Shown piece after piece: positions 18,007-18,205 of a stretch of DNA of 35,038 nucleotides. The stretch lies in the NCBI GenBank assembly GCA_030588705.1, contig JAUUXD010000003.1:1-35038 (forward strand), read 5' to 3'. The DNA comes from a bacterium. GTDB taxonomy: Bacteria; Babelota; Babeliae; Babelales; Vermiphilaceae. Position 1 is the stretch's first letter; every line of letters starts with the position of its first letter. A program made the translations under genes and the position numbers. A model generated the notes under the pieces. That model worked only from the letters and a program-made list of their open reading frames with translations. It had not been told where the DNA came from and searched no databases.

Positions 18007-18205
18007 CCGGTAGCGAACGCATGACCGTAGGCCGTCTGTAAGGCGGACGTGTGTCATGCTTGCGAGCGAAAGAGCAATCAAACAGCATGTTTGTGCCCTT
18101 GTATTGAAGGTATTGGGCACGCAATACCTTTATGCCCTGCCGGCATGAGGCGAGAGAGATTGTGATTAAATAATTAACAGTATCTAGAAATGATAGCGCT
18201 CTCCA
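18007..18205. ncRNA. Structured repeat element, copy B (candidate ncRNA or palindromic element; strand unproven)
   Basis: Homologous to 5109-5300; hairpins CAAACA-GCA-TGTTTG and TGAAGGTATTG-GGCACG-CAATACCTTTA. Confidence 0.6.

Follow-up and report, generated by a model that had tools for sequence, protein, structure and literature searches.

A mobile, structured repeat family of Dependentiae with two pseudoknots kept by covariation

Introduction

Among bacterial noncoding elements, tmRNA carries several consecutive H-type pseudoknots in one RNA, and BOX repeats have a predicted structure; the elements described below come from Dependentiae, bacteria parasitic on protists. The bcr1–bcr18 repeats of Bacillus cereus are 100–400 bp long, intergenic, lineage-restricted and noncoding, often transcribed within untranslated regions (UTRs), and include bcr1, which resembles a miniature inverted-repeat transposable element (MITE), and bcr10 and bcr18, which have a conserved RNA structure (PMC6542083, PMC3446304). 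Repetitive extragenic palindromes (REPs) and bacterial interspersed mosaic elements (BIMEs) are intergenic and form head-to-head heterodimers, with singletons as remnants and a bias towards gene ends (PMC3733652). Here we analyze a 35,038-nucleotide stretch from a member of the Vermiphilaceae (GenBank assembly GCA_030588705.1, contig JAUUXD010000003.1, positions 1 to 35,038 of the forward strand; the whole stretch is referred to as the window), and find that three units in it, A, B and C, belong to a previously unlisted, mobile and structured repeat family with two pseudoknots that are kept by covariation.

This family resembles the bcr repeats in being short, dispersed and intergenic, in its non-orthologous positions and mobile behavior, and in the compensatory changes within an RNA-like fold; it differs in having two covarying pseudoknots and head-to-head pairs and in occupying five families of another phylum, with no known sequence relation. 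With the GTAG superfamily of REP/BIME elements, mobilized by RAYT proteins, it shares heterodimers and a gene-end bias, and many Dependentiae units begin CCGGTAG, but REPs are single hairpins of 20–40 bp whereas these units are ~190 nt long with several helices and pseudoknots; we rejected a GTAG REP identity on size, on fold and because the Y1 transposase is absent above cut-off in copy-rich genomes. Pneumococcal BOX, RUP and SPRITE elements, the subject of PMC3049150, are comparable as modular noncoding interspersed repeats and differ in host, sequence and architecture. Tandem pseudoknots are also a likeness to tmRNA, an identity we rejected given no Rfam tmRNA match, no ARAGORN tmRNA at the sites, and no tag open reading frame (ORF) or tRNA-like domain.

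Results

The family is dispersed over 17 Dependentiae genomes

As a first-pass annotation of the window had reported, unit B (18007–18205) aligns over its full length with unit A (5109–5300), and the hairpins quoted there are present letter for letter; the identity of the two units is ~77–80%. What that annotation took to be a set of three copies is a dispersed intergenic family with a unit of ~190–280 nt: the source genome (G000, an 870 kb draft) gives 13 BLAST matches to A in ~10 places, and BLAST against 51 relatives places the core in six genomes. A covariance model (R1) built from the family core, the kind of search that had been proposed for this genome and its relatives, is positive in 16 of 102 Dependentiae genomes from five families, with the highest copy numbers in G067 (32) and one other genome (25). 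BLAST adds G001, such that 17 of the 102 genomes carry the family. We collected ~110 copies over these 17 genomes, and 120 parsed model matches resolve into 108 distinct units; many of the matches are located at the ends of contigs, a usual feature of repeats.

Scanning genome contigs with a degenerate 25-base pattern returns matches only in Dependentiae or metagenome-assembled genomes, plus one in Pseudooctadecabacter, which we take as chance since about one chance match is expected for this pattern. Phage and plasmid records contain no match, and Rfam 15 has none for A, B, C or the units at ten other loci, even at E values up to 1; the few weak Rfam matches fall elsewhere or far under threshold. 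The Dependentiae literature that we searched (mostly open-access papers) holds no account of such a repeat.

Both pseudoknots and the hairpins change in pairs

The unit folds as one strand into a branched 5′ domain closed by helix P1, a short hairpin 1 and two successive pseudoknots; in both pseudoknots a hairpin loop is joined to 3–5 bases that directly adjoin the stem before it. The corresponding features of the window are:

5109–5300, plus strand: unit A, single, without an inverted partner, between FKBP-type isomerase and TypA/BipA genes
5181–5195, plus: hairpin 1 of A, CCAACG-GGA-CGTTGG
5196–5234, plus: pseudoknot 1 of A, TGCC (5196–5199) with GGCA (5218–5221) of the hairpin 2 loop
5207–5217 and 5224–5234, plus: hairpin 2 of A, CGAAGATATTG with CAATATCTTTG
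5235–5251, plus: pseudoknot 2 of A, TGC (5235–5237)/GCA (5243–5245) interleaved with GTCT (5239–5242)/AGGC (5248–5251)
17760–17983, minus: unit C, left half (LE) of the pair with B; 3′ limit approximate, model match 17820–17881 on the minus strand
17996–18001, plus: −10-like TATAAA, with its end 6 nt upstream of the start of B; position kept in several genera
18007–18205, plus: unit B, right half (RE) of the head-to-head pair, with 5′ domain, hairpin 1, pseudoknots 1 and 2 and 3′ tail
18019–18059, plus: P2 of the B 5′ domain, GCATGAC (18019–18025)/GTCATGC (18053–18059), read directly
18079–18093, plus: hairpin 1 of B, CAAACA-GCA-TGTTTG
18094–18121, plus: pseudoknot 1 of B, TGCC (18094–18097) with GGCA (18116–18119) of the hairpin 2 loop
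18105–18132, plus: hairpin 2 of B, TGAAGGTATTG-GGCACG-CAATACCTTTA
18133–18151, plus: pseudoknot 2 of B, TGCC (18133–18136)/GGCA (18142–18145) interleaved with GCC (18139–18141)/GGC (18149–18151)

Pseudoknot 1 joins the four bases that directly follow hairpin 1 on its 3′ side to the first four bases of the hairpin 2 loop, a pairing raised as a possibility from the TGCC and GGCA of the window copies and now strongly supported. Seven fully Watson-Crick types occur (TGCC/GGCA, CGCC/GGCG, TACC/GGTA, CACC/GGTG, TGTC/GACA, TGTA/TACA and TGGT/ACCA), and over the 108 units 425 of 432 cells are paired, compared to 375 ± 3.3 when loops are shuffled among units (maximum 388 in 2000 shuffles). Among the G067 units, 19 have C-G as their first pair and 7 have T-A, with no mixtures. 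One G021 unit (L156, G021:C13) has a T-G wobble in this pseudoknot. For pseudoknot 1 and hairpin 2, joined in a composite alignment, we used a tree-aware null, in which each column's substitutions are re-placed randomly on the tree (150 simulations); hairpin 2 was located by its pairing and the upstream four bases by a list of observed variants, blind to the unit's loop. Of 435 column pairs, those ranked first to tenth are proposed pairs without exception; six reach E < 0.05, the first pair of pseudoknot 1 among them.

Hairpin 1 comes in two kinds, CCAACA-GCA-TGTTGG and AATAAGAGA-loop-TCTCTTATT, each with variants in which pairing is retained as the letters change. Hairpin 2 has 10–13 pairs, is intact in nearly all units and is fully paired in A, B and C with several two-sided changes, as initially described; its 1050 cells comprise 1025 Watson-Crick, 22 G-T, 2 A-C and 1 other, and both A-C cells come from G085 and probably reflect a shifted register in a unit carrying an additional base. 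In double-stranded DNA the two strands mutate together, and a G-T intermediate on either strand is an A-C on its complement; that G-T outnumbers A-C therefore identifies the strand as read as the folding strand, an asymmetry that fits RNA or single-stranded DNA.

In pseudoknot 2, three to four bases directly adjoining hairpin 2 are joined to the loop of the small hairpin 3 (TGC/GCA, CGC/GCG, TTC/GAA and TGCC/GGCA), whose stem also changes in pairs (CCCC/GGGG, GCCT/AGGC, TGCCC/GGGCA and TGCAC/GTGCA). This pseudoknot is missing in G058, G009, G003, G037 and G019, and given connecting loops of 1–2 bases its two stems may instead be alternative hairpins.

In type 1 units, P1 lies directly after CCGGTA and directly before a GGGAGA-like purine run, and shows paired changes between genera (GCGCGA/TCGCGC, GCATCG/CGATGC, GTTTC/GAAAC, GCTTT/AAAGC and GCGCGT/ACGCGC); P2 variants in other copies include CACGAC/GTCGTG. 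Many type 1 units contain the GTAG of the CCGGTAG start, whereas units of type 2 and those of G067 and G011 do not. Other copies do not preserve a helix once suggested between AGCG near the 5′ end and CGCT near the 3′ end; in them the 5′ end pairs internally as P1. Read on the minus strand, C runs through hairpin 1 (AAAAAGGGA-AACC-TCCCTTTTT), TGCCCTTGTAT, hairpin 2 (CAAATATATTA-GGCAAG-TAATATATTTG; region 17838–17879), hairpin 3 and the tail; its 5′ domain is of another type than that of B and A.

Homologs with paired substitutions, both pseudoknots included, are present throughout the ~108 copies, with stems intact in almost all of them and no Rfam match. Each refuting condition set with the first-pass view was thus examined and did not arise, which supports that view of an undescribed structured element under structural selection. 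We regard selection on a single-strand fold as close to certain. That view missed the mobility of the family, its head-to-head pairing and the second, downstream pseudoknot.

Units pair head to head at positions that relatives do not share

Among the 24 clusters with more than one unit, 23 have a head-to-head arrangement (−+, with 5′ ends inside). The sole exception, L137 (G067:C58:4957-5456), is a tandem triplet of direct units ~210–230 bp apart. Most G017 units form pairs of ~560–700 bp with two distinguishable halves, and C and B are such a pair, sitting between two convergent genes without a Pfam match; the inverted halves are complete oriented units, not plain terminal inverted repeats.

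One G017 pair (L085, ~680 bp) lies between two convergent genes whose orthologs in the same-genus genome G024 (73–75% identity) abut, without room for the pair. In the typA neighborhood, where A resides, a unit is found in only G000 among 25 family genomes with typA and is missing in the other 24. Because the L085 pair is absent at the congener junction and the position of A is not common to 24 relatives, the family is very likely mobile. Unit 3′ tails are A-rich at the end (e.g., L085 2250–2310 and L122), with AAAATGAAATTTAAAAA in G017/G024 and CTAAAGAATAAAAAA in G067, and are reminiscent of retroposed ends, although the copy-rich carriers have no reverse transcriptase. At G000:C28 a left and a right half are fused through the hairpin 2 loop, and in C34 and two G011 copies (L120, L121) other repeats are inserted inside hairpin 2.

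The fusion at G000:C28 and the repeats inside these three hairpins would also suit a palindromic DNA element of MITE or REP/BIME type, whose single-stranded or cruciform hairpins a transposase would recognize and whose arms would be matched by template switching (quasipalindrome correction) and not by RNA function; a likeness to REP heterodimers (PMC3733652) is seen in the dissimilar inverted halves, the intergenic position biased toward the 3′ ends of genes, and the many hairpins. Quasipalindrome correction, however, equalizes the arms of one hairpin and cannot covary a loop with a separate upstream segment, nor can it covary both stems of pseudoknot 2. With the G-T/A-C asymmetry marking one strand and copy-rich genomes lacking a Y1 transposase, we consider this explanation unlikely.

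A −10-like box precedes many units

In several genera a TATAAA-like hexamer lies 9–14 nt upstream of the unit 5′ end. A −10-like box with a 5/6 match is present in 32 of 53 upstream regions, compared to 12.3 ± 3.1 in dinucleotide shuffles, and windows farther upstream give 16 and 9. At B, the TATAAA overlaps TTTATA (17994–17999), which reads TATAAA on the minus strand, toward C, and could serve C as a minus-strand −10. These boxes suggest that units are transcribed, likely from their own weak promoter, and the folding molecule is probably RNA rather than single-stranded DNA. A terminator-like poly-T was looked for at B and not found.

A host-serving RNA, that is, a multicopy small RNA or a 3′-UTR element that stabilizes or terminates convergent transcripts and was spread by an unrelated process, would account for the −10-like box, for stems intact in nearly all copies, and for the ~63% of unit 3′ ends that face a gene 3′ end (from crude ORF calling). 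It accords poorly with a patchy presence in 17 of 102 genomes at variable copy number, with positions not conserved even within a genus, and with the lack of a terminator-like poly-T at B; conserved downstream target genes were not seen either, and we find this account improbable.

No searched mobilizing enzyme is shared by the carriers

Within pairs, ORFs do not exceed 120 amino acids, and no long ORF is carried; a 741-amino-acid ORF between two G067 units was rejected as a carried gene, as by eye it looks like an ordinary flanking gene. We searched for six enzyme families (Y1/RAYT, reverse transcriptase, TnpB, IS110, DDE_Tnp_1 and rve), none of which is found above cut-off in G000 or in G067 with its 32 copies. 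The Y1 transposase PF01797 is absent in G000, G012, G017, G024, G011, G085 and G058, with a sub-threshold match only in G067, and the reverse transcriptase PF00078 is absent from copy-rich carriers. Ten of the 102 genomes have TnpB (PF07282), with no carrier among them, and IS110 occurs as one fragment in one of nine carriers; PF01609 (DDE_Tnp_1) is present in three of nine carriers and PF00665 (rve) in one, both missing in G000, G067, G085 and G058. No tested family is common to carriers, and one must invoke either another kind of trans-acting factor or the replication and recombination of the host.

This distribution bears on a further reading, in which the RNA would serve a known transposon system as guide or scaffold, acting on non-autonomous copies; candidates are a TnpB/IscB omega RNA, an IS110 bridge RNA, and the RNA of a group II intron, a retron, a diversity-generating retroelement (DGR) or another retroelement. 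Element ends marked by a structured noncoding RNA, 3′ ends that point outward and the A-rich 3′ tails of several genomes would be expected of such a system, but TnpB is in no carrier, reverse transcriptase is absent from all copy-rich carriers, IS110 is limited to that single fragment, and Rfam, which includes many such RNAs, gives no match. We view this origin as very improbable.

Other repeats and genes near the units

Unrelated to these units, a second family of dispersed repeats (TACTTCGC...GCGAAGTA, CGAAGGACAGG) is intergenic and also found near tRNA genes, with window copies at 3723–3751/32527–32555, 10727–10772/32783–32828 and 32530–32570/32598–32638. Pieces like it interrupt the C34 minus-strand copy, within its hairpin 2 loop, and are also inserted in units of other genomes. 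In L120 and L121 (G011), ~60–70 nt of another structured repeat splits hairpin 2, which suggests that its loop is a preferred insertion target. A further interspersed repeat, CTTGTTACGCCTGGGTACCCG...CTGGGCATGACGGAGAGAG, adjoins units at L049, L048 and L063 (G066, G067; f14 genomes). Elsewhere in the window, 13722–16372 holds three adjacent paralogous small-protein genes with similar signal peptides (PLCAME) and a common C-terminal segment, followed by duplicated intergenic stretches (14323–14398/16297–16372); the one paralog tested has no Pfam match.

Discussion

The reading we favor, and consider reasonably probable, is that A and B are non-autonomous mobile intergenic elements in which the folded strand, most likely RNA, is needed for spread. 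Each unit would be transcribed outward from the −10 box at its 5′ end, a pair yielding two divergent RNAs, and selection would act on the folded RNA at a step, carried out by a protein or a ribozyme, in which the element is copied or moved; as the element has no gene, this step would be supplied in trans. We lean toward the fold being kept mainly for the element's own propagation and not for a host task. It is doubtful that the family amounts to a phylum-wide selfish RNA gene, self-transcribed and doubly pseudoknotted, that directs its own insertion via a host or other factor without a transposase, reverse transcriptase or RNA-guided nuclease of known family.

Several observations weigh against the favored reading. 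None of the six enzyme families searched is common to carriers, and the genomes are drafts in which a transposase could be missed. A target-site duplication is not definable, the empty site being too diverged. Covariation by itself does not tell RNA apart from single-stranded DNA; a −35 was found neither at A nor at B, and A also lacks a good −10 box. Folding energy by itself is mildly unusual (z of −1.7 for B and −1.3 for A), and an energy calculation alone would have missed the fold.

A mobile noncoding repeat is usually a simple hairpin whose spread is accounted for by a transposase encoded in that genome, and the Dependentiae family departs from that pattern. Covariation of a loop with its upstream segment offers a sharp criterion for distinguishing selection on a folded strand from maintenance of a DNA palindrome. 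The family gives a parasite phylum in which few noncoding RNAs have been described an alignable, RNA-like set of elements, and it makes the spread of structured repeats without a transposase a testable question.
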